64,000 nt of DNA from Actinomyces denticolens (GTDB lineage: Bacteria; Actinomycetota; Actinomycetes; Actinomycetales; Actinomycetaceae). The DNA lies in NCBI RefSeq assembly GCF_002072185.1, contig NZ_MVIW01000013.1:1-64000 (forward strand), given 5' to 3'. Made by a program: the position numbers and the translations under genes. The notes under the pieces are model-generated. The model was not told where the DNA came from, did not search any database, and worked only from the letters and a program-made list of their open reading frames with translations. Positions 38,499 to 49,407 of the stretch are shown here, piece after piece (position 1 is the stretch's first letter; every line of letters starts with the position of its first letter).

Positions 38499-39398
38499 TC
38501 ATCCCCCGGGCAGGAGGTAGCGGGAGGCCAGACCCGCAACGGCCTCCTCGGCGGGGTTGAGGCCGAGGCGGTTCGCGTCGATGTGGAGCAGGTCGATCGC
38601 ACGGCGCCATTCCTCCCCCCCGCCCATGCGGGCCACGGCGCGCGCCGCGTCATCGGCGAGAGCATCGAGGGAGGCCACCGCCTCGGGCCGCAGTGGCCCG
38701 CCCGGGCCGGCGGCACCGAGGACGCCGCGCACCATGTGCTCCAATCCGGCTCCCCCGCGCAGCTCGGCGGGCAGCCGGGGGCCCCAGGCGCGCAGGTGGG
38801 CGGCGAGCAGGCCCGACGCCGAGGCGCCGCCCCAGGGCGACCCCGCCCCCAGTCCCACCCCTCCTGGCCCGGCCGCGCGGTCGGCGCGAGCGATCGCCGT
38901 CACCGCCCGGGCGAGGTAGTGGGCCGCGAGCGCCGCGCGCGCCTCGGGCCGGGGCGCCTCCCAGACCCGCTGCTCCAGGCACCACCGGCTGGCGGCGTCG
39001 AAATGCGCCTCGGCGGCCTCCACGCCGCTCGGCCCCCCGTACTTGCCGTACTCGGGGCCGTAGACGGCCAGTGCCACTCCGGCTCGACCGGTCTGCGCGC
39101 TGGTGAGCGGGTCGGGGACGAGGCGCGGCAGGACCCGCCCGGTCGAGGTGCGGCAGGCGCGGTCGAGCGGCTCGAGCCCGGCCGCGAGCCGGTCGAGGAC
39201 GTCGGGTGCGGCCTTGACGCGCAGCCGCAGGTGGTGTCCGCGCAGGTCGACGAAGCGCAGGAAGTGCGCCGAGTCGATCCTCCAGCGCTCCCGCGCGCCC
39301 TCCAGCCACGCGGCGACGGCGGGCAGGAGCGCGTCGGTGTCGTCGCCGCCGGGGCAGTAGAGGCGGGCGTAGAGCCAGTCCCGATCGTCCTCGCTCAT
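38499..39398 (-). CDS. thiopeptide-type (SpaB_C) elimination or cycloaddition domain protein
   Basis: A 299-residue member of the 'thiopeptide-type bacteriocin biosynthesis' family, the stand-alone C-terminal domain of LanB dehydratases. Typical features are DWLYARLYCPG at the start, SAHFLRFVDLRGHHLRLRVK, YGPEYGKYGG followed by AEAHFDAASRW, and LLHIDANRLGLNPAEE. In split dehydratases such a protein removes glutamate from glutamylated Ser/Thr to give dehydroalanine or dehydrobutyrine; in thiopeptides a paralog does the [4+2] ring closure. Only one copy is present here, so the first role is more likely, but this is inference. The ATG overlaps the stop of the dehydratase gene (ATGA), with GGAGGAG upstream. 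Last gene of the cluster. Confidence 0.88.
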   Translation of the reverse strand: MSEDDRDWLYARLYCPGGDDTDALLPAVAAWLEGARERWRIDSAHFLRFVDLRGHHLRLRVKAAPDVLDRLAAGLEPLDRACRTSTGRVLPRLVPDPLTSAQTGRAGVALAVYGPEYGKYGGPSGVEAAEAHFDAASRWCLEQRVWEAPRPEARAALAAHYLARAVTAIARADRAAGPGGVGLGAGSPWGGASASGLLAAHLRAWGPRLPAELRGGAGLEHMVRGVLGAAGPGGPLRPEAVASLDALADDAARAVARMGGGEEWRRAIDLLHIDANRLGLNPAEEAVAGLASRYLLPGG

Positions 39399-42088
39399 CG
39401 CGCGCTCCTCCCCCCGGAGGGGTGGACGGCCCGAGCCGCCGCGGGCCCGGTGGCCGCGCCGACCGCCGAGGCCCCGATCGGCGCCGAGGCCCCTGCCGCC
39501 ATGCCGCCGCCCTTGGGCCACTGGATGGCGACCAGGTACTCGAGGGTCGTCGCCTCCCCGCCGCCCGTGGCGCCCGCGAGCTCGTCGCGCGCCGGCAGGG
39601 CCTCCACGAGGGAGAGGTGCTCGGCCTCGGGGCTGATCCACCCGCGCAGCGCCATGAGCGAGACCGGCGAGCGCAGGTCCACGTAGCGGGGCTTGTGCTC
39701 ATCGAAGGTGGCGCCCTGGTTGGGCATGAGCTGGTGGGCGTAGACCTCGGCGGGCAGCCCCCATGCCTCGCGCAGCCTGGCCACGCCCACCAGGGTGGCG
39801 GTCATATCCCGCTCGAGGAGGTCGGTGAGCTCGTGGGCGGGGAAGGTCCAGGACTCGCGGCGCGTCACGAGTCGCCCCTCGACGGCGCGCGGCTCGTGGG
39901 TGAGCTCGTCGGCGGGCGGTCCCGAGGTTCCCCGGCGTCGGCTGATCCAGTGATCGGCCATCGGGGGCAGACGGGACCACGGGTCGGCCAGGAGCGCCAG
40001 CCAGGCGAGGTAGCCGCCGAGTCGGTGCTGCGGGGCCAGGCCCAGGTAGGAGATGCCCACGGGCCCGTCGCCATCGGCGAGGAAGAGCGTGGCCGTGGCG
40101 GGGTCGTGGGCGAGCCGCAGCTCATCCAGGTCGACGGCGCCCGGCGAGTCGGGGTCGCCCGGCAGGCGCAGTGCGGGCAGGGTCCCGCACGAGACGGCCT
40201 GCCCGGTGTTGCACTCGGTGGCGGCCTGGATCTCCAGGAGCCGATCGGTGCCCCAGGCGGTGCGCAGGGACCGGGCGAGGCGCTCGCGGTAGTCCTCGCC
40301 GAGGAGGCGGTGGAAGCGGGCCTGGAGCGAGCCGTTGCCGTTGGTGAAGGCGTTGACCACGGTCAGGCCGCCCCCGCTCTCCCAGGGGGCGGCGCCCGTG
40401 GCAACGGGCTGGAGGAAGGCCCCGAGGTGGCGGGGGGAGGCGGAGGCGCCGCCGGGCAGGGCGGCGCGCTGCGGGCTGGGGCCACTGGTGAAGTCCCGGG
40501 CGGCGGCGGCCAGCATCTCGGCGTCGCCGTCGGGGGCGTGGGCGAGGGTGAGGAGGAAGGCGAGGGGGTCCTCGCAGATCCCGCCGCGGCCGTAGGCGGA
40601 GACGAATCGCTCCACGAGGAGGTCGTAGAGGTGGGAGCGCGTGACCCAGGGGTCGGCCATCCGGGCCAGGCGGGCGCAGTCCGCCCCGAAGGACTCGTAC
40701 CGTGACGGATCGGGCCAGGCGAGAGGGGATTCGCAGTCCTCGTAGAGGAGGCCGCCGGGGCGCTCGCCGAGCTCGCCGTCGCCGAAGACGCGCCGGGCGA
40801 TGGCCCCGGCCCTGCCCAGGAGCCTGGCGCGCTCGGGTCCCGCGGCGGCCCCGACGGCGCCGTCCAATCCGGCCAGCCACGCCAGGTCCTCCCCCCAGGC
40901 CTCGCGCTGGGAGGGGGACAGCGCCGCTGCCAGCGCCGGGAAGGGGTTGTCCCCGCGCTGCCAGGGGACGTGGACGCGCACCGCCCCGGACTCGAGAAGC
41001 CGGGTCAGGCGCAGCCCCGGGTCATGGGCGTCCAGCCGCGCGGCGGCCTCGCGGATGGTGACGGGTCCGGGTGGGACGGGACGGGGTGCTCGCCCCGCGG
41101 GGCCGGCATTGAGGCCGGCGGGAGCGCCCAGGCCCCCCGCGACCCAGGTGGCGGGGGCGACCTGCTCTCGGCGGAACACCATGCCATTGGCGTAGTCGTA
41201 CTCGGGCAGGGCGGTCAGGGGGATCGGAAGGGGCGGGGCGGACTGGGCGGCCGCCTCCTCAGAGCCTTCACCGCCCGCGCCGATGGGCGGCACGGCCTCG
41301 CGCACCGGCAGCGCCTCCAGCTGGATGCCGCTGGCCGGGTCGAGCTCGCGGGCCAGGGCCATGAGGATCCCGTGGGCGAGATGGACGGCGACCATCCGGT
41401 GGGACCGCCCCCTCCCGCCGTTCCTCCCGCCGCCCGGCCCTCCCCTCGCGCCCTCCTCGGCGGCGCCGTCCCCCGCCGTCCCGGCGCCGGGGGAGACCGT
41501 GGTCAGCCCGGAGAAGGGGCTGGTCTTGAGCGCCGCGCGCGTGGCGAGGGTGTAGAGGCTGCGGGCCACACGGGCATCGCCCAGGCGCACTCCCCGCAGC
41601 GCCAGGATGGACACGAGCTCGGGGGCGGCCACGGCGAGGGCCTCGAGGTAGCCGGGCTCGTCCAGACCCGCCGCCAGCACGGCCCTGCTGGCCTCGAGGT
41701 CACCGGCCACCGCCTCCTCCAGGTGGGCGCGCGCCGCGTCGCGTCGGGCGAGCATCGCGTCCCAGCGATCGACGCCGTCGGCCAGGGCCCTGGGCATCGC
41801 GGCGCGCGCCCGGTCGCTCAGCGCGCTCGGCCGACCCTGGAAGACGCGGCGCTTGGCGGCCAGGACGGCGCGCCGCTCGGGGCGCTCCAGGGTGGGGATG
41901 AGCTCGTAGAGCGGATCCAGCAGGGCCTGCCCCACCGGCTCCAGGGCGTCGTGGCGGCGCAGGTACTCCTCCAGGGCCGTCGTCAGGCCGGGGCTGGGAC
42001 GGGGGATGGCGCGCTCGGGCAGGCCGCCGACGCGCACAAGGGTCGGCAGCGGGAGGCCGGGGGACGGGGGAGCCGGGACGGCGATCAT
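39395..42088 (-). CDS. LanB-type lantibiotic dehydratase (glutamylation domain)
   Basis: An 897-residue protein homologous to the N-terminal, tRNA-Glu-dependent glutamylating part of class I lanthipeptide dehydratases, as used in split form by thiopeptide and goadsporin pathways. The family hallmark KTSPFSGLTTV is present (around residue 210), as are FVSAYGRGGICEDPLAFLL, a NAFTNGNGSLQARFHRLLGEDYRE core, ITRRESW-type and RYVDLRSPVSLMALRGW segments near the C-terminus. It would activate Ser and Thr of the precursor for dehydration. The true start is ATG 42088, overlapping the protease stop; the frame is open for 470 codons further upstream, which is a GC-rich artefact. Confidence 0.88.
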   Translation of the reverse strand: MIAVPAPPSPGLPLPTLVRVGGLPERAIPRPSPGLTTALEEYLRRHDALEPVGQALLDPLYELIPTLERPERRAVLAAKRRVFQGRPSALSDRARAAMPRALADGVDRWDAMLARRDAARAHLEEAVAGDLEASRAVLAAGLDEPGYLEALAVAAPELVSILALRGVRLGDARVARSLYTLATRAALKTSPFSGLTTVSPGAGTAGDGAAEEGARGGPGGGRNGGRGRSHRMVAVHLAHGILMALARELDPASGIQLEALPVREAVPPIGAGGEGSEEAAAQSAPPLPIPLTALPEYDYANGMVFRREQVAPATWVAGGLGAPAGLNAGPAGRAPRPVPPGPVTIREAAARLDAHDPGLRLTRLLESGAVRVHVPWQRGDNPFPALAAALSPSQREAWGEDLAWLAGLDGAVGAAAGPERARLLGRAGAIARRVFGDGELGERPGGLLYEDCESPLAWPDPSRYESFGADCARLARMADPWVTRSHLYDLLVERFVSAYGRGGICEDPLAFLLTLAHAPDGDAEMLAAAARDFTSGPSPQRAALPGGASASPRHLGAFLQPVATGAAPWESGGGLTVVNAFTNGNGSLQARFHRLLGEDYRERLARSLRTAWGTDRLLEIQAATECNTGQAVSCGTLPALRLPGDPDSPGAVDLDELRLAHDPATATLFLADGDGPVGISYLGLAPQHRLGGYLAWLALLADPWSRLPPMADHWISRRRGTSGPPADELTHEPRAVEGRLVTRRESWTFPAHELTDLLERDMTATLVGVARLREAWGLPAEVYAHQLMPNQGATFDEHKPRYVDLRSPVSLMALRGWISPEAEHLSLVEALPARDELAGATGGGEATTLEYLVAIQWPKGGGMAAGASAPIGASAVGAATGPAAARAVHPSGGRSAR

Positions 42089-43275
42089 GCGAGAAGCCCT
42101 CTCACCAGGTTGAACAGGATGAGGCCCAGCGACGTCAGGCTCATCACCATGACGGTGATGCCGAGCAGCGCGGCGAGCAGGCCGTAGAGGAAGTAGCCCC
42201 AGCGGGCGGATCTGCGCATGACGGCCAGGGCCGGGGGCAGTGGGACGCGCCTCAGGGCGCAGCGCAGCACGAGCATGGAGCGGCCCCGGAGGTTGACCGA
42301 GCCGGTGAGGGCCTCGATGGCGGCCACGCCGTCGGACTGGGTGAGCGGATTGGAGTTGGTCACGAGCATGGTCAGCTGGAAGGCGCACAGGGTGAGCGCG
42401 ACCTGCCGGACGACGCCCCCGCTCGAGGCCGCGACGGCCGCCTCGATGCCGCAGACGACGCCGTCGGAGCACATGCCGGCGAGGGCGAGCATGGCCAGCC
42501 CCAGCCGCGAGCGCACCCGGTAGGAGTCGGTGCGGTCGACGTAGGCGATGGGTATCACCCAGAACATGAGCGCCACGCCGAGGCCCCGCACGGGCGGGCC
42601 GAGCCAGCCGGCGACGATCGCGTGCCAGGACTCGTGCCCGACGATGCTCATGAGCTGGATGGCGATGGCGATGATGATCACTGAGAGCGTCGGCCGCGCG
42701 CCGCCGGCGAGGTTGAGCAGTGCGAGCACTCCGGCGGCGTACCCGGCGACGGCGGCGAGGATGAAGACGACGGCGAGGCTCCGCGCCGGCAGGCGGCGCA
42801 GCAGTCGGACGATGGGGGCGACCACCCGGTGGTAGCTGCGGCAGAGCATGAAGCGGGGCAGGAGCCAGCCGCCGCTCCAGCGCGAGGGGTGGACCCTGAC
42901 GTGCCGCCCCTGGTGAACGGGGGCGACATGCCGGCCGCGCGCGAATCGGGGTCGCCGCTCGGGATGGGGGCGCGGAGCGACGAGGGGGGCGCTGGGGGCG
43001 GCCGTGGAGGCCATGCTCAGCAGTTGCTTGCCGCGCAGGGAGTCGACGAGGCCGTTGATGCGCTGGGCGCCGGCGGCGTCGATCTTCTGCGGGAGCTGCT
43101 CGATGATGGCGGGCAGGCTCCTGCGCCCGTCGAACTGGCCGACGATGAAGGCGGCGGCGGCGCCGAGCCGGTGGTACTTGCCCGAGTCGGAGTCGAAGAG
43201 CATGGGCTGGTTGTCCATCCCGACGATCAGGGACACGCCCTGTCGCAGCCGCGGGATGTCGGTGGTGGCCGTCAT
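42085..43275 (-). CDS. PqqD-like domain fused to M50 (site-2-type) metalloprotease
   Basis: A 396-residue membrane protein. Residues ~8-85 resemble a PqqD-like precursor recognition domain (RLRQGVSLIVG, FDSDSGKYHRLGAAAAFIVGQFDG). A basic linker follows, then about eight membrane helices. The zinc site of M50 proteases looks intact: HESWH at residues 214-218 and NPLTQSDG at 309-316, which supplies the third Asp ligand. I infer that it binds the leader of the precursor and cuts it at the membrane, perhaps during export. It lies directly after the precursor gene, separated by a hairpin, and overlaps the dehydratase start by 4 bp. An RBS (GGAG) precedes ATG 43275. Confidence 0.85.
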   Translation of the reverse strand: MTATTDIPRLRQGVSLIVGMDNQPMLFDSDSGKYHRLGAAAAFIVGQFDGRRSLPAIIEQLPQKIDAAGAQRINGLVDSLRGKQLLSMASTAAPSAPLVAPRPHPERRPRFARGRHVAPVHQGRHVRVHPSRWSGGWLLPRFMLCRSYHRVVAPIVRLLRRLPARSLAVVFILAAVAGYAAGVLALLNLAGGARPTLSVIIIAIAIQLMSIVGHESWHAIVAGWLGPPVRGLGVALMFWVIPIAYVDRTDSYRVRSRLGLAMLALAGMCSDGVVCGIEAAVAASSGGVVRQVALTLCAFQLTMLVTNSNPLTQSDGVAAIEALTGSVNLRGRSMLVLRCALRRVPLPPALAVMRRSARWGYFLYGLLAALLGITVMVMSLTSLGLILFNLVRGLLA

Positions 43276-43327
43276 CGTGCGCTCCTGCCTCCCTCAGGTG
43301 ATGCGATGGGTTCGGGGATCCGGGGGA

Positions 43328-43367
43328 CGGTGGCGGCCGGGGGAAGGGGATCCTCCGGCCGCCACCG
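43328..43367 (-). terminator. attenuator hairpin between precursor and downstream enzymes
   Basis: Arms 43328-43340 and 43355-43367 form a perfect 13-bp GC-rich stem with a 14-nt loop, 7 nt after the precursor stop. No T-tract follows, so partial read-through into the protease and dehydratase genes is expected, giving more precursor than enzyme mRNA. Confidence 0.65.
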
Positions 43368-43374
43368 CGCGTCC

Positions 43375-43572
43375 TCAGCAGGACGTGGTCGAGGCGCAGG
43401 CGGCGCAGGCCTCCGTCGAGGCGCTGGCGGCGCAGCCCGCGGTTGAGGCGCAGGCGGCGCAGGCCGGGCATGAGGCGCTGGCGGCGCAGAAGAAGCAACC
43501 CAGGGCGTTGCCCTCGGGGAGCTCCTCAACACCGAAGTCGCTGTCAGCGAGCGTCAGGTCGATCGTGGTCAT
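43375..43572 (-). CDS. RiPP precursor peptide, Cys-rich (azole/thiopeptide-like)
   Basis: A 65-residue peptide with a clear leader/core split. The acidic leader (residues 1-25) contains DLTLADSDFGVEELPEG and NALG; the core (26-65) holds nine Cys, seven Ser and four Thr among Ala, with few other residues (two Phe, one Pro, two Gly, one Glu). Cys sit at 26, 29, 35, 38, 41, 47, 56, 59 and 65. The segment CAACAST occurs twice (38-44 and 56-62), suggesting internal duplication. AAGGAGGTG 7-8 nt before the ATG is the best ribosome-binding site in the cluster. YcaO/SagB enzymes would turn Cys into thiazoles, and the LanB pair would dehydrate Ser/Thr. The leader resembles thiazolylpeptide-type precursors; the exact product class is unknown. 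Confidence 0.85.
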   Translation of the reverse strand: MTTIDLTLADSDFGVEELPEGNALGCFFCAASASCPACAACASTAGCAASASTEACAACASTTSC

Positions 43573-43616
43573 ATGCTATTCACCTCCTTCACTTGAGTAA
43601 CTGGCTGGTGCAGGAG

Positions 43617-43634
43617 CAGGCCCGCGAGGGCCTG
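43617..43634 (-). promoter_or_regulatory. second small hairpin in precursor 5' region
   Basis: CAGGCCC and GGGCCTG form a perfect 7-bp stem with a 4-nt loop, 44 nt before the precursor ATG. Together with 43637-43668 it makes a two-hairpin block upstream of the ribosome-binding site. Confidence 0.5.
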
Positions 43635-43636
43635 AT

Positions 43637-43668
43637 GAGGGGGCTGGTCCGGCATGACCGGCCCCCTC
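43637..43668 (-). terminator. hairpin between SagB-like gene and precursor
   Basis: Arms 43637-43649 and 43656-43668 pair over 13 positions (one G-T/G-U pair) with a 6-nt loop. It may end the upstream enzyme transcript or stabilise the 5' end of a processed precursor mRNA. Confidence 0.6.
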
Positions 43669-43717
43669 GCCCCGTGATGGGGCGCTCGGGGCGCGGCGCA
43701 ACGGGCGCCGCGGCGCT

Positions 43718-44434
43718 CTATCCGGGCGGTGAGGCCACCGTGACGGCGAACATCTGGTGGCGGCTCACGCCGTCGGAGTCGAGCAGGTGGCGCACCGCGG
43801 AGGTCGAGAAGCCGGCGAAGACGGTCCCGACCAGCCCTCGGGCGATGGAGCGCAGGTGCAGGGAGTAGATGAGGGCGGCGGCCCGCCCCATGACGAAGCG
43901 GTACCCATGGGCCCCTCCCCAGGAGTCGGCCTCGTCGAGGTTGGCGGCCGCGGAGATGATCGCCCCGGCGCGGGCGAACTCCTTCTGCACGGCCATGCCC
44001 TCGATCTCCTCCTCGTCGGGCAGGTCCCCCAGGCGCTCGACGACCCGCCCGGCGCCGGCGGCCCCCGGGGCGCTGATCCGGTAGAGGCCGGGCTCGGCGC
44101 CGCTGGGGCGCAGCAGGAGGATGAAGGCCTCGAGGGACCCGACGGAGGCCTCGTCCCCCCAGGTGCGCGCGTCCTCGTCGAGGGCGGCGGCGACGTCGGC
44201 GAACAGGACGGCCGCGTCAATGGGCCCGGGGCCGTAGTCGGTGGCCGACGATCGCCGCTCGAGGCTGGCGCGCAGGTCACGGGGGTAGGGGGCCATCTCC
44301 TCGATAGGGGCGCCGCTCATGGCCGCCAGAGGGCGGCGCGGGCGGCGGGCGGCGAGCCCGTCACCGGTCGGCGGCGTGGCGGGATCGGGCAGGGCCGCCA
44401 CGATCTCGCGCAGGGTCTCGATGTCAGAGCGCAT
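43718..44434 (-). CDS. short SagB-like nitroreductase-fold protein
   Basis: A 238-residue protein of the nitroreductase/SagB fold. ERRSSATDYGPGPI near residue 57 is the FMN-phosphate binding segment. VGSLEAFILLLR, LYRISAPG and HGYRFVMGRAAALIYSLHLRSIARGL follow the order of azoline oxidases. Where the fused dehydrogenase and characterised members have Lys-Tyr, this one has Gly-Tyr, so it may be a partner or have altered chemistry. GGAGGAAG 2-3 nt before ATG 44434 sets the start; the gene overlaps the upstream one by 11 bp. Confidence 0.75.
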   Translation of the reverse strand: MRSDIETLREIVAALPDPATPPTGDGLAARRPRRPLAAMSGAPIEEMAPYPRDLRASLERRSSATDYGPGPIDAAVLFADVAAALDEDARTWGDEASVGSLEAFILLLRPSGAEPGLYRISAPGAAGAGRVVERLGDLPDEEEIEGMAVQKEFARAGAIISAAANLDEADSWGGAHGYRFVMGRAAALIYSLHLRSIARGLVGTVFAGFSTSAVRHLLDSDGVSRHQMFAVTVASPPG

Positions 44435-46316
44435 CGCTTCCTCCTGTTCCAGTCGCCTCCCCGGTCCCGCCGACCCCATCGGGGAGGTCGACGACGGCGC
44501 ACACCGGCTCCCGGGCGGGGTCGGTGCCGATGAGGGCCGCGATCGCCCGCTCGTCCCAACGGGAGCGCGCGCGGATCGGCAGCCCGAGGGCTCGGGCCAC
44601 CAGGCGGATGACCTCGAAGGCGCAGCCGCAGTCCTGGACGGCCAGGCGCAGGGCGAAGGCGTAGTACTTCTGGGAGACCTTGTCGATGTTGCCGGTCAGG
44701 ACGATCCGGGTGGGGTCGCCGGCAGGCGCGGCGGGGCCGATGAGCGCGAGCTCGTGGTCCCTCTCGACGTACACGTAGGTCCCGGGGGCGAGCCCCGTCC
44801 CGTCGACCTCCCCGGCGCGGTCGCCGGCGGCCTCGGGAATGAGCACGTAGGCGGTGACGGAGCCGATGTTGCCGCCCGCGGCCGTCCAGCGGCGCAGCTT
44901 GGCGCCGAGGTCCGCGCCACCGTCGGCGCCGCCATCCCCGCCGCCGGTGGTGGCCCGACCGCCATCCGCGGCCGCGTCGCGGGAGAGGGGCTCGCGGACC
45001 CCTGCGGCCAGGGCGAGGATCGTGGCGAGCCGCGTTGTGCCCGCACTGCGGGCGGACGGGCCCTCTTCCCCGTCCCGTCCCGGCCCGGTGCGCCCGTCGG
45101 CGCCGCTGGGCCAGGGGCGCTGGAGGCCGGAGAGGTCAGCGGCGGGCAGCGGCGAGCGCGGGCAGACCGGCCAGTCGCGGAAGGCGCGCTGGAGGCGCAG
45201 GTTGGAGGGCTTGTAGTGCTGCTGGTGTCCCTTGGCGTCCACGAAGGCGGCGGGCGGGATGGCCACGGACTGCTCATACCGGGCTCCGACGGGCGCCGAC
45301 GCCGCCACGGGCGCGGCGCCCCGCCCCTCCGCGCCGCCCCCGCTCACCGAGCACACCGGGCAGCCGGGACGGGTGACCACGGGGATGTGGGTGCTGGCCA
45401 GGGTGACGAGGTCGGTGCGCTGGGAGTCGCCGGGAAGGTGGGTGACGGTGGCGCGGGCGATGACGGCGGCGACGGCCCTTGCGGCCAGGCCGATGGCGAG
45501 GTCCATTCGGGCCGGCCCCGGCACCGGCCCGATCCCCTCCTCACCGGCGGTGGCGCACTCCAGGCACGGGGAGAACGCGGGATCGATGTAGGGACCCACC
45601 GTCACAGCGCCGTTCTCGGCGCGCACGCGCAGCAGCGGGATGCCCGCGTCCCAGCACTGCTCCGCGGCGCGCGCCACGGCCTCGCGCGCCCCCCGGGTCT
45701 CGACGGCGACGACGAGCGTGTCCCCCGCCCGGGGCCCCGGGCCCGTCGCCGCGCTGAGGGTGGGGGCGAGGGCGCCCGCCAGGGCGTCGGCGCAGGCCGT
45801 GCCCCCGCCCGCCCCGACGATCCTCACACGGGCGGCGACCAGGCGCCGGGCGGCGTCCTGCCAGGAGTCGTTGACGCCGGTGGAGTCGCCCAAGCGGGAC
45901 AGGAGGCACACGAGGGCGGGGGCCGGGCCGCTTCCGCCCTCATCGGTCGCGCCCGGCGCCCGGGCGGTCCAGGACGTCAGCGGCTCGGTGTCCCCCTCCT
46001 CGATGATCCCGCCTGTCCACAGCAGGGAGGCGGCGGCGAAGGCGGCCTCGGGGCCGATGCCGGTGATCTCGCCGATCTCGCCGAGGGCGCGGGTGCCGTC
46101 GCAGGCCTCGATGTAGGCTCCCAGGTGCTCGCGGGCGAAGGCGCCGCCGAGCACCTGGCTCTTGCGGGCGCCGTCGATGACCCAGGCCTCGTCCTCCCAG
46201 CGCAGCCGCAGGCCGCGCCGCAGCACGGGCTTGCGCGGGATCCTGAACTGGAGATCGCGCTGGGCGGCCATCCCGACGTCGGAGGCCCGCATGGCAGTGC
46301 TCGCGGCGGCAGCCAT
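44424..46316 (-). CDS. E1-like leader-binding protein fused to SagB-type dehydrogenase
   Basis: A 630-residue fusion. Residues ~25-115 resemble the RiPP recognition element of ThiF-like partners (PRKPVLRRGLRLRWEDEAWVIDG, CDGTRALGEIGEITGIG). Residues ~155-330 form the E1-like domain with zinc-type pairs CLEC (251-254) and CPVC (319-322). Residues ~345-615 are an FMN azoline dehydrogenase with YKPSNLRLQRAFRDWPV, TGNIDKVSQ and KYYAFALRLA (Lys about 550). The fusion would deliver the precursor to YcaO for cyclisation and then oxidise azolines to azoles. Long Ala/Gly-rich linkers lie near 330 and 400-450. It abuts the preceding stop (TGA followed directly by ATG). Confidence 0.82.
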   Translation of the reverse strand: MAAAASTAMRASDVGMAAQRDLQFRIPRKPVLRRGLRLRWEDEAWVIDGARKSQVLGGAFAREHLGAYIEACDGTRALGEIGEITGIGPEAAFAAASLLWTGGIIEEGDTEPLTSWTARAPGATDEGGSGPAPALVCLLSRLGDSTGVNDSWQDAARRLVAARVRIVGAGGGTACADALAGALAPTLSAATGPGPRAGDTLVVAVETRGAREAVARAAEQCWDAGIPLLRVRAENGAVTVGPYIDPAFSPCLECATAGEEGIGPVPGPARMDLAIGLAARAVAAVIARATVTHLPGDSQRTDLVTLASTHIPVVTRPGCPVCSVSGGGAEGRGAAPVAASAPVGARYEQSVAIPPAAFVDAKGHQQHYKPSNLRLQRAFRDWPVCPRSPLPAADLSGLQRPWPSGADGRTGPGRDGEEGPSARSAGTTRLATILALAAGVREPLSRDAAADGGRATTGGGDGGADGGADLGAKLRRWTAAGGNIGSVTAYVLIPEAAGDRAGEVDGTGLAPGTYVYVERDHELALIGPAAPAGDPTRIVLTGNIDKVSQKYYAFALRLAVQDCGCAFEVIRLVARALGLPIRARSRWDERAIAALIGTDPAREPVCAVVDLPDGVGGTGEATGTGGSDAL

Positions 46317-46949
46317 TCAGATCACCGCCCTGGAGGGGATGGGGCCGCGGGAGCGGCCGGGCAGGAGGGCGGCGAGCTCGGGCACGCCGTCGCGCGAGCC
46401 CTCGTAGCGCCCGGAGCAGGTGGGGCATCGGTCGACGGCGGTGACGCTGGCGCTGGAGGTGACGCCGGTGACGAGCTCGACCGTCCACACGCGGCCGCCG
46501 GCTCCCTCATCGCCCTCGTCGAGCAGGCCGAGGGCCATGGTGATCAGGCCCGCGCCGATGACCACGTGGTGCTCGGCGTAGCCCTGCTCCAGGGGGGCCA
46601 GGCCCTCGGGGAGGGGACGGTGGCCGTGCTGGCGGCGGCGCCGGGCGGAGCAGTCGTGGCAGGGGGTGGCGCCGGGGATGACCAGCGGGCCGCAGCGCAG
46701 CTGGGTGGGCCCGAGCTCCAGCCCGATCGAGGGGATGCCCCGGGTGAAGGACTCGGCGTCGAGGGCGGCGCGCAGGTCGTCGCGGTCGGCGTCGCAGATG
46801 AGGACGAGGCGGTCGGCGTAGGGCAGGGCGGCGCCGAACACGTCGTCGCGCACGTTGAGGACCACGTCCTGCGGGCCGGCGAGCCGATGGGCGACGGCGT
46901 GGCCGTAGGCGCCCTGGGCGAGGAGGGCCGTGATGGTCGGCGCGCTCAT
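46317..46949 (-). CDS. small E1/ThiF-like RiPP cyclodehydratase partner
   Basis: A 210-residue protein with the C-terminal part of the ThiF/E1 fold used by azole cyclodehydratases: YADRLVLICDADRDDLRAAL, CGPLVIPGATPCHDCSARRRRQ, HHVVIGAGLITMALGLLD and a second Cys pair CPTC (175-178), giving a four-Cys zinc site with CHDC (97-100). It lacks an obvious recognition domain, which the following fusion protein supplies. AAGGAGG 6 nt before the ATG. It probably forms a complex with YcaO (33 bp upstream). Confidence 0.78.
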   Translation of the reverse strand: MSAPTITALLAQGAYGHAVAHRLAGPQDVVLNVRDDVFGAALPYADRLVLICDADRDDLRAALDAESFTRGIPSIGLELGPTQLRCGPLVIPGATPCHDCSARRRRQHGHRPLPEGLAPLEQGYAEHHVVIGAGLITMALGLLDEGDEGAGGRVWTVELVTGVTSSASVTAVDRCPTCSGRYEGSRDGVPELAALLPGRSRGPIPSRAVI

Positions 46950-46982
46950 GCGCCGCCTCCTTCCTTGATACGGGTGCGACCC

Positions 46983-48329
46983 TCAGGCGAAGGGCTGCTG
47001 GACGGGGTTGATGCCGGACTCGTCATGGGCGCTCAGGCCCATGGCGATGGGCGCCTCGTAGAGGCGCGGGGTGGCCAGATAGCGGGCGCGGTGGCTGAAG
47101 GACAGGGGCATGGCCTCGGGGATGAGGGCCTTGATGACGCGCATGCCGACCTGACGGGCCTCGTCGGTGGTCAGGTCGACGACGATCGCCTCGGCCCCGG
47201 CGCGCTCCAGGCCGGCGACCACCTGCTCCAAGTCGTCGGAGCCGTGCCGCAGGGCGCCGATCTCCTCCAGGTCATGGCTGGGGCGCGAGCCCTCCAGGAG
47301 GAAGTCGAAGACGTGGCGCATGGAGGGGTCGGCGTCGGCCAGGGCGCCTCCGACGACGGTGAGGTCGGCCCCCTTGACCTCCTCGAAGCGGGGGCTTCGG
47401 GCGTGGGAGCGCAGGGCGATGCGCAGGGAGGCGAGCTCGCGGTAGATCTTGGCCAGGGCGCGCCGGGGATCGAGGTCGCAGGTGGCGGCCACCACCTGAG
47501 CGAGCTCGGGGTCGGTCTCGGATAGCTGGACGGCGTAGAGGGTGGGCACGCCGTAGTCGGTGGTGGCATCGAACAGCCGCACCTCCAGCCCGGTGGACGT
47601 GCCCACGCGGTGGTACTCGGCGGTCGCCTCGTCCAGCGCGCCGGGGTCGACGACGACCCTCGGCAGCCGCAGTCGCTGAAGCCAGGTCAGGGCGATGGAG
47701 TCGCGCTCGATGACCTCCAGAAGGCCCCCGAGGACGGCTTCGCGCAGGTCGGAATGGGCGGCGGTCCCGGTGGACACGGGGTTGGTGAAGCGCTCGGCGG
47801 GGGTCTTGATGGGGAATTTGAGGTAGACGAGGAGGGCGGGGACGTAGACCTCCCTGCCCTGGGTGAGGGACCAGCCGCGCACCCAGCGCAGGGGCAGTCG
47901 GGGGTCCGAGGGGATGAGTCCGCAGCGCGGGTCGGCGAGCTCGGCGGCGGAGCAGGCGGGCCAGCGCTCGGGGCCGATCGCGGCGTCGCCGAGGCCCGCG
48001 GCGGTGTCCCAGATGAGCTCGGAGTCGGTCCATGAGCAGCTCGAATAGCGCTCGAGGGACTCCACGAAGGCGATATGGCGGGCGAGCTCGGGGTCGATCG
48101 CGCCGCCGGCGCCGTCGATGTTGCCCGACTCCGCCCGGTGGTCCCAGGTGCGCTGGGAGGCCAGGGACTGGGAGAGGTCGCCCAGGAGCCCGGTCCAGAT
48201 CGAGTAGGCGGGCTCGCCCGGGGCCGGGGGGAGCTCCGCGGCGCGCGAGACGAGTCCGTAGGGCGACTCCAGGGCTGCCGCGCGCGCCAATGAGGGCGCG
48301 ACATCCTCACGCAGGGCGGAGCGGTACAC
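46983..48329 (-). CDS. YcaO-domain azoline cyclodehydratase
   Basis: A 448-residue ATP-dependent enzyme that would convert Cys (or Ser/Thr) of the precursor to thiazoline/oxazoline. The ATP/Mg motifs of YcaO are present: AFVESLERY (Glu90, Glu93, Arg94), RFTNPVSTGTAAHSDLREAVLGGLLEVIERD (in two parts; Glu205 and Glu208) and LRSHARSPRFEEV. The C-terminus NPVQQPFA stands where azole-forming YcaOs carry a Pro-rich tail. The start is GTG 48329, with GGAGGAGG 6 nt upstream. It is the first gene of the cluster, read away from the LuxR-type regulator. Confidence 0.93.
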   Translation of the reverse strand: MYRSALREDVAPSLARAAALESPYGLVSRAAELPPAPGEPAYSIWTGLLGDLSQSLASQRTWDHRAESGNIDGAGGAIDPELARHIAFVESLERYSSCSWTDSELIWDTAAGLGDAAIGPERWPACSAAELADPRCGLIPSDPRLPLRWVRGWSLTQGREVYVPALLVYLKFPIKTPAERFTNPVSTGTAAHSDLREAVLGGLLEVIERDSIALTWLQRLRLPRVVVDPGALDEATAEYHRVGTSTGLEVRLFDATTDYGVPTLYAVQLSETDPELAQVVAATCDLDPRRALAKIYRELASLRIALRSHARSPRFEEVKGADLTVVGGALADADPSMRHVFDFLLEGSRPSHDLEEIGALRHGSDDLEQVVAGLERAGAEAIVVDLTTDEARQVGMRVIKALIPEAMPLSFSHRARYLATPRLYEAPIAMGLSAHDESGINPVQQPFA

Positions 48330-48705: not shown

Positions 48706-49407
48706 ATGCCCCGCCGGAGCCCCGCCGCCCAGAATCTGTCTGATCCGATCTCCGTCGCGCTCGTCGACGACGACGCCATGGCGCTGGCGCACCTCCAGTC
48801 CTACTTCTCGGATTCCACCGAGTTCGAGATCCGGCTCTCGACGGGGTCCGTGCATGAGGCACTGCAATTCCTCCAGACGCACCAGGTCGATGTCATCATC
48901 AGCGAAATCCACATTCACTCCGAGGAGATGGATGGCGTGGCCATGACGGAGGAGGTCCTGCGATCCTCGTCCCAGACCCGGGTCATTCTCCTGACATCCC
49001 TGGACACCGACTCCGATCTCATGCGCGGCCTGGCCGCCGGTGCGAGCGGCTTCCTGCTCAAGAGCGCGCCGCCCCAGGAGATCCTGGCCGCCGTGCGGGC
49101 CGTCCACTCGGGCGCCAAGGTCGTGGCGCCGGTTCCCACGGCCAGGCTCATCGACCACGCGCTGGCCTCCGTGCGCCGGGCCGATGGGAGCATCGAGATG
49201 TCCGAGCGGGAGGCCGACGTCCTGCATCTGCTGTGCGAGGGCGCCTCCAATCGCGCCATCGCCGAGCGGCTGTCGATCGCGGAGGCGACGGTCAAGTCCC
49301 ATATCTCAGTCCTCTTCACCAAGACCGGCACGAGCTCGCGCCTGGAGATGGTGGTGTGGGCCTTCCACCACGGCTACGCCTCGCAGGAGGCGCCCGCCGC
49401 CGGTTGA
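48706..49407 (+). CDS. LuxR/NarL-family regulator with Glu at the phospho-acceptor site
   Basis: A 233-residue protein with a receiver domain (residues ~14-135) and a LuxR-type helix-turn-helix (~165-225, SEREADVLHLLCEGASNRAIAERL). The receiver keeps the acidic residues (Asp21, Asp22), Thr97 and Lys119, but the phospho-acceptor position reads IISEIHI, i.e. Glu67 (codon GAA) instead of Asp. Glu often mimics phospho-Asp, so the regulator may be active without a kinase; no kinase gene is adjacent. It is transcribed away from the RiPP operon, whose regulator it probably is. GGAG 8-9 nt before the ATG. Confidence 0.88.
   Translation: MPRRSPAAQNLSDPISVALVDDDAMALAHLQSYFSDSTEFEIRLSTGSVHEALQFLQTHQVDVIISEIHIHSEEMDGVAMTEEVLRSSSQTRVILLTSLDTDSDLMRGLAAGASGFLLKSAPPQEILAAVRAVHSGAKVVAPVPTARLIDHALASVRRADGSIEMSEREADVLHLLCEGASNRAIAERLSIAEATVKSHISVLFTKTGTSSRLEMVVWAFHHGYASQEAPAAG

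Follow-up and report, generated by a model that had tools for sequence, protein, structure and literature searches.

Eight RiPP genes on one strand

The window, a 64,000-nucleotide stretch of Actinomyces denticolens DNA, carries eight RiPP genes, all on the minus strand and spanning positions 48329 down to 38499. Read in the direction of transcription, they encode a YcaO cyclodehydratase (G2, or D protein; 46983..48329), a small E1-like partner (G1, C-type; 46317..46949), an E1-like protein fused to SagB, an McbC-type FMN dehydrogenase (E2-type; 44424..46316), a second SagB-like protein of nitroreductase fold (E1-type; 43718..44434), a 65-amino-acid precursor (43375..43572), a PqqD-like RRE fused to an M50-type intramembrane metalloprotease (42085..43275), a GodF-like LanB-type glutamylation enzyme (39395..42088) and a SpaB_C protein (38499..39398). 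The YcaO gene begins with GTG. Refined start sites lie at 39398 for the SpaB_C gene (the open reading frame 38499-39641 is over-long), at 42088 for the LanB-like gene and at 44434 for the second SagB-like gene, and there is a 4-base overlap both between the M50 and LanB-like genes and between the LanB-like and SpaB_C genes. Matches in Pfam and NCBIfam cover six of the eight proteins. The other two match neither library and were typed through GodF (the LanB-like protein) and through the predicted fold (the second SagB). The preliminary description had recognized a compact azole and dehydro-amino-acid RiPP cluster in these eight same-strand genes, and its outer coordinates, protein types and enzyme assignments all stand.

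The 2.83-Mb genome has a single match to this YcaO and a single PF14028 protein. On one side the cluster is flanked by adenylosuccinate lyase, and on the other by a divergent LuxR-type response regulator (48706..49407, plus strand; PF00072 and PF00196), followed by a phosphoribosyltransferase and CstA. The response regulator might control the cluster, and one of the same two families adjoins it in four of the four type-A loci whose gene lists were inspected. Neither a dedicated exporter or immunity gene nor a GodB-type transporter was recognized among the 10 flanking proteins scanned, three of which match no family; CstA is a general transporter-like protein. A scan for promoters and terminators found nothing, its output being near shuffle level.

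Relatives in Actinomyces and beyond

A pattern-based scan of named genomes, which gives a lower bound, recovered at least 29 loci (15 from Actinomyces and 14 from Streptomyces or Nocardiopsis). The full type-A gene order is present in 13 of the 15 Actinomyces loci (L002-L008, L010-L014 and L029), although the best segment is partial for LanB in L005 and for E1-SagB in L012. Of the other two, L009 is truncated where its contig ends, and L015 represents an additional, divergent cluster of A. timonensis. The 14 Streptomyces/Nocardiopsis loci carry the azole quartet, with YcaO proteins 47-56% identical to that of the window and a distant LanB match in 12 of them (not in L027 or L028), and no relative of the M50 protein was found in any of the 14. 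Across 200 genomes of the family, 25 have a match to that protein; 20 of these belong to the same genus, and the five from outside it match weakly. Precursor relatives occur in 24 of 49 Actinomyces genomes, 22 of them at E <1e-15 and two (G592 and G609) with type-B matches only. Matches to the precursor family NF033482 in genomes G107 and G008 were set aside as not belonging to kin clusters, because the gene lists around them (L074 and L075) hold no relative of any of the eight window proteins. Relative to A. timonensis, dN/dS lies between 0.18 and 0.48 for all eight genes, which indicates purifying selection.

A precursor with a three-residue register

The precursor presumably divides into a leader of residues 1-25 (43572-43498) and a core that would begin at Cys26 (43497-43378), followed by the stop codon at 43377-43375. 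It is 94% identical to its counterpart in A. timonensis, and the leader stretch IDLTLxDxDFGVEELPEGNALG is nearly constant in 21 distinct type-A precursors. When the 21 distinct cores are numbered from the Cys after LG and positions divisible by three are taken as sites, a strict register appears. Cysteines fall in register in 170 of 171 cases, and every one of the 280 register positions holds Cys (170), Ser (86) or Thr (24). Among the 160 off-register Ser and Thr residues, 122, all of them Ser, immediately precede a register site and the other 38 immediately follow one, while each of the 51 Pro residues comes directly after a register site. Agreement of the Cys/Ser/Thr pattern, computed for lags 1-18, reaches 0.69-0.89 whenever the lag is a multiple of three (0.889 at lag 9) and stays at 0.30-0.41 otherwise. 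Cores of 31, 37, 39, 40 and 43 residues occur, 13 of the 21 having 40, and the lengths differ by three- or nine-residue steps except in L054. The sole off-register Cys is the last one of this same core (L054/L086), which ends out of register.

For the window core, none of 20,000 shuffles placed all Cys in one register and none of 20,000 matched the Cys/Ser/Thr register; among the remaining 20 cores, the observed values were reached by 0-105 (Cys) and 0-42 (Cys/Ser/Thr) of 20,000 shuffles, and these tests, like the counts above, are not independent because the 21 cores are related, partly through repeat duplication. A stronger argument that both Cys and Ser would be heterocyclized is their exchange at fixed sites: in nine of the 13 alignment columns with Cys, some cores have Ser or Thr instead. 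A single register describes type-B cores less well: it takes in 6/10 to 10/10 positions in the 11 cores, out of 13, that were tried, one of the 11 having been cut inside the leader by the automatic rule. Because gene order recurs in relatives, dN/dS is low and the core register exceeds that of shuffles, the RiPP cluster is real and maintained, and not a product of chance.

The exchange of Cys and Ser also bears on a reading in which azoles are combined with thioether rings, some free Cys adding to dehydro residues as in lanthipeptides. The LanB pair and the many Cys would suit such chemistry. A fixed thioether would not permit the exchange seen at most register columns, and a search for LanC-like proteins matched none in the window's genome and one of the 14 control genomes, which makes this reading very unlikely in our estimation.

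The 21 cores form a natural series that varies in module number and in the choice of Cys or Ser, and they offer a handle on how YcaO enzymes and azole-dependent dehydratases select their sites.

Predicted enzymes for azole formation

The YcaO protein matches TIGR03604 (E 1.3e-117) and ends in NPVQQPFA. This tail (46983-47009) follows the pattern NPxxQPxA, in which Q and A are present in 34 of 34 aligned rows, N and the first P in 33 and the second P in 32. Many azoline-forming YcaO proteins end in a PxPxP tail, unlike the window protein. The small E1-like partner (TIGR03882, E 2e-9) has two Cys pairs, C97/C100 and C175/C178, that are invariant in 32 rows. The E1-SagB fusion matches TIGR03882 (E 4e-10) and, at 46 bits and under the cut-off of 78, TIGR03605 (E 3e-12). 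Its Lys (K550) and Tyr (Y551) are each found in 33 of 34 rows, the remaining row being cut by a contig end; the Lys-Tyr pair has been called catalytic for McbC (PMC8442711). With a YcaO protein, an E1-like partner and a precursor rich in Cys, Ser and Thr, the locus has the hallmarks of a TOMM, or linear azol(in)e-containing peptide.

No Lys-Tyr pair could be seen by eye in the alignment of the second SagB-like protein. Its AlphaFold2 model (pLDDT 81.5) has nitroreductases as Foldseek matches, including ThcOx and McbC. Since this second protein appears to lack the pair, the two SagB proteins likely form a heterodimer with a single catalytic half.

Predicted dehydration enzymes and the question of a pyridine ring

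The LanB-like protein has no LanB match in Pfam or NCBIfam. By phmmer it matches GodF (9jhq) at E 5e-31 and TbtB (6ec7) at E 2e-9, and a 13-row profile strengthens these matches to 1.1e-75 and 3.5e-29, respectively, with GodF as the nearest solved relative. That this half of the dehydratase pair escapes the general libraries would fit an azole-only peptide whose dehydratase pair is silent or otherwise employed. All 13 full type-A loci have both halves, with dN/dS of 0.28 and 0.23, which argues against this, and we hold an azole-only product to be quite improbable.

The SpaB_C protein (PF14028, E 3e-27; TIGR03891, E 1e-19) has 12 residues that do not vary across an 18-row alignment in which three rows are GenC-type proteins from thiopeptide loci: R48, H56, R58, R60, P115, E116, K119, Y120, G121, H272, N276 and R277. 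MibB shows stretches similar to these motifs, with Arg in place of the Lys at 119, whereas the GenD consensus, judged by eye, lacks them. A search of the PDB with the SpaB_C profile up to E 1 returned MibB (1e-13), 9g04 (MadB; 9e-10), NisB (1.4e-9), TsrE weakly (7cww; 8e-4) and three unrelated chains, with TbtD and PbtD absent. When both profiles were run on 30 loci, no GenD protein was hit by the SpaB_C profile and no SpaB_C protein by the GenD profile. Predicted structure discriminates less well. The model (pLDDT 90.1) has a [4+2] cyclase as its first Foldseek match and MibB as its second at near-equal scores, and TbtD and PbtD chains fill much of the list, such that the fold alone does not separate an elimination enzyme from a pyridine synthase. 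On its motifs and profiles, the protein is most likely the glutamate-elimination enzyme. The SpaB_C proteins of L003-L008 and L010 (A. oris, A. naeslundii and close relatives) carry an N-terminal extension of about 100 residues that is absent from the window protein.

Searches for a pyridine synthase address the product class more directly. A GenD profile matched nothing in the window's genome or in six of seven other Actinomyces genomes. It did match A. bowdenii (L111, on another contig and not a row of the profile) and two Streptomyces genomes, the latter controls being rows of the profile itself, and it also detects proteins outside its own rows in L017, L024 and L111. GenD-like proteins are present in nine of the 14 Streptomyces/Nocardiopsis loci (none was seen in L022, L023 or L025-L027); the 15 Actinomyces loci gave no match, nor did L069-L073. 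The second profile, NF045556, found nothing in the window's genome or in 14 named control genomes and gave below-cut-off matches in the genomes of L019 and L014.

The cluster might nonetheless make a thiopeptide if its single SpaB_C protein also formed the pyridine, or if a divergent cyclase were encoded elsewhere. YcaO-based azole formation and split LanB genes are both present, as expected of thiopeptides, the azole set is thiopeptide-like, NCBIfam labels the precursor 'thiocillin family', and Foldseek does not tell the two folds apart. The [4+2] pyridine/piperidine synthase is what two profiles failed to find. Because both profiles are empty in the window's genome yet match elsewhere, a thiopeptide is an unlikely product, and the elimination-type motifs and profiles of the SpaB_C protein, together with the repetitive 40-residue window core, argue in the same direction. 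We have rejected a thiopeptide identity on the cyclase profiles and the SpaB_C motifs. A dehydrazole identity was rejected as well: that class is defined by a DUF4135/LanMbC dehydratase (PMC10676384), none of the eight proteins matches this family in Pfam, and the dehydratase of the window is of another kind. Azole enzymes and a split LanB without a matched pyridine synthase, as seen in the window, are what characterizes goadsporin-type linear azole/dehydroalanine (Dha) clusters.

The window precursor is a member of NF033482, named 'thiocillin family RiPP' (45.7 bits against a cut-off of 25; E 5.7e-12). The name suggests a thiopeptide, although members in the window, L069, L071 and L072 occur without a pyridine synthase detectable by the GenD profile, a finding that questions the 'thiocillin' label in NCBIfam. 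The family also figures as a 'thiocillin-like' label on a published YcaO tree (PMC8442711).

An RRE joined to an intramembrane protease

The M50 protein has long hydrophobic segments and the motifs HESWH at 214 and NPLTQSD at 309. In its alignment, H214, E215, H218, P310, L311, S314 and D315 are present in 14 of 14 rows and N309 in 13. The N-terminal stretch matches PqqD (E 1.9e-5) and, in a profile comparison, TfuB1 (E 5e-4). The match to the daptide protease family daptide_HExxH (NF041824, E 1.5e-19) reaches 70.4 bits, under the cut-off of 300, and does not qualify the protein as a daptide protease. Epipeptide clusters with EpeP and daptide-type clusters resemble this one in having a membrane M50 protease and differ in their precursor classes; EpeP is thought to both cut and export an epipeptide (review, PMC10885120). 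The pairing of an RRE with an intramembrane protease offers an entry point for studying how azole RiPPs lose their leaders.

Proposed pathway and known systems

Taking these results together, we consider it fairly probable that the cluster makes a linear RiPP containing azoles and dehydroalanines, of the goadsporin and spongiicolazolicin kind and without a pyridine macrocycle, whose leader would be bound by the RRE and cut by the M50 protease. We infer all chemical steps, the cleavage site and export in the following pathway. The RRE-like N-terminus of E1-SagB and the small E1 partner would hold the leader and act with YcaO to cyclize Cys, Ser and Thr at each third position of the core. Azolines would be oxidized to azoles by the SagB pair, after which the GodF-like enzyme and the SpaB_C protein would dehydrate each Ser that immediately precedes an azole. 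Finally, the RRE-M50 protein would bind the leader and cut it at the membrane, and because no dedicated exporter was recognized beside the cluster, it may also release the product. For the window core, up to 14 azoles (nine Cys, two Ser and three Thr sites) and five Dha residues are predicted, for a product of about 3287.9 Da if cleavage occurs before Gly25. Common oral Actinomyces would thereby gain a definite, testable natural product.

By analogy, the cluster should work like that of goadsporin with azole enzymes of the berninamycin type. The berninamycin and geninthiocin B clusters share with the window the YcaO, small E1, E1-SagB fusion and second SagB in the same order, and the paper on geninthiocin B describes this split G2-G1-E2-E1 set and calls it unusual (PMC6306032); our L019 locus is from the strain producing that compound. 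What sets geninthiocin B apart from the window cluster is the pyridine synthase GenD and a core of 15 residues, ten of them Ser (PMC6306032). Goadsporin is similar in its azoles and Dha, its split LanB and its lack of a [4+2] enzyme (PMC4603692, PMC5303826), and its azoles seem to be required before GodF acts (PMC5303826). It differs in having a single fused cyclodehydratase, the peptidase-ABC transporter GodB, an acetyltransferase and a 19-residue core. The window cyclodehydratase parts are separate genes, and this, along with the lack of a GodB-type transporter among the flanking proteins, sets the cluster apart from goadsporin proper. The genome-mined coryneazolisins likewise combine azole genes and LanB-like dehydratases with no [4+2] enzyme, but have two D proteins and a core of ten Cys, Ser or Thr residues, an Ile and then five to seven more residues (PMC4603692).

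Given these precedents, the view in the preliminary description that the enzyme set is unusual was too strong: both berninamycin and geninthiocin B have published clusters with the azole quartet, and many Actinomyces as well as a same-class genome share the complete gene order. That reading, sound on cluster type and enzymes, also omitted the absence of a recognized pyridine synthase, the GodF-like nature of the dehydratase and the three-residue register. Its failure to name a matching described product is borne out by the literature searched, as no description of this Actinomyces cluster was found among the matches listed in open-licence papers. One study counted 31 gingiva-enriched RiPP clusters of Actinomyces, apparently without describing this one (PMC8549736). 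The enzyme types are already known, the strict three-residue register and the presence of an RRE-M50 protein in such a cluster are new points, and no description seems to exist of this branch or of its highly regular peptide pattern.

Spongiicolazolicins and divergent clusters

The main risk to the novelty of the Actinomyces cluster is presented by spongiicolazolicins A and B, linear azole/Dha peptides of 29 and 28 residues with a tripeptide pattern, which we compare by product description only (PMC8838263, PMC11583998). The Actinomyces cluster could be a branch of this family, whose pathway is already described in Streptomyces sp. CWH03; such a reading competes with ours on novelty and not on chemistry. 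Type-B relatives share the gene order, and a same-class genome, G171 (L069 and L070), has it with four precursors. One of its cores would measure 28 or 29 residues depending on where it is cut, which equals the published lengths of spongiicolazolicins B and A (PMC8838263), and the S/T-[STC]-x runs of this core agree by eye with the tripeptide pattern described for these compounds (PMC11583998). Against this, the Actinomyces type-A cores are mostly 40 residues (13 of 21), rich in Cys and strict in register. We rate membership in the spongiicolazolicin family as a serious possibility, somewhat below an even chance. More doubtful is a separate linear polyazole class, defined by a triplet core in which every third residue would become an azole (up to 14 azoles in 40 residues) and Cys and Ser are interchangeable at most sites, by nine-residue modules (31, 40) with three-residue steps (37, 43), and by an RRE-M50 protein that would both remove the leader and release the product in place of a transporter.

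The YcaO and SagB trees, in which L070/L069 and L111 are long branches, are compatible with a single origin for the M50 clusters, a single change being obtained in 26% and 50%, respectively, of 200 bootstrap replicates; the 15 rows labelled thiopeptide include L111 and the five loci (L022, L023 and L025-L027) where no GenD was seen.

L072 is the same cluster as L015. Together with L071, it represents divergent type-B Actinomyces clusters in which several distinct precursors follow one another and an ABC transporter pair lies alongside. Two precursors were counted in L072 by both scans, and in L071 four by one scan and five by the other. Beside clusters L070, L071 and L015 lie an ABC ATPase and a membrane protein of the ABC-2 type, the latter being truncated in L015 at the locus end and just under the Pfam cut-offs. 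The A. bowdenii locus L111 (G600:C7:65000-84900) is a separate, thiopeptide-like locus with YcaO, E1-SagB, SagB and LanB-like proteins and a match to a GenD-like pyridine synthase, and the A. bowdenii genome holds both a cyclase-bearing and a cyclase-less cluster.
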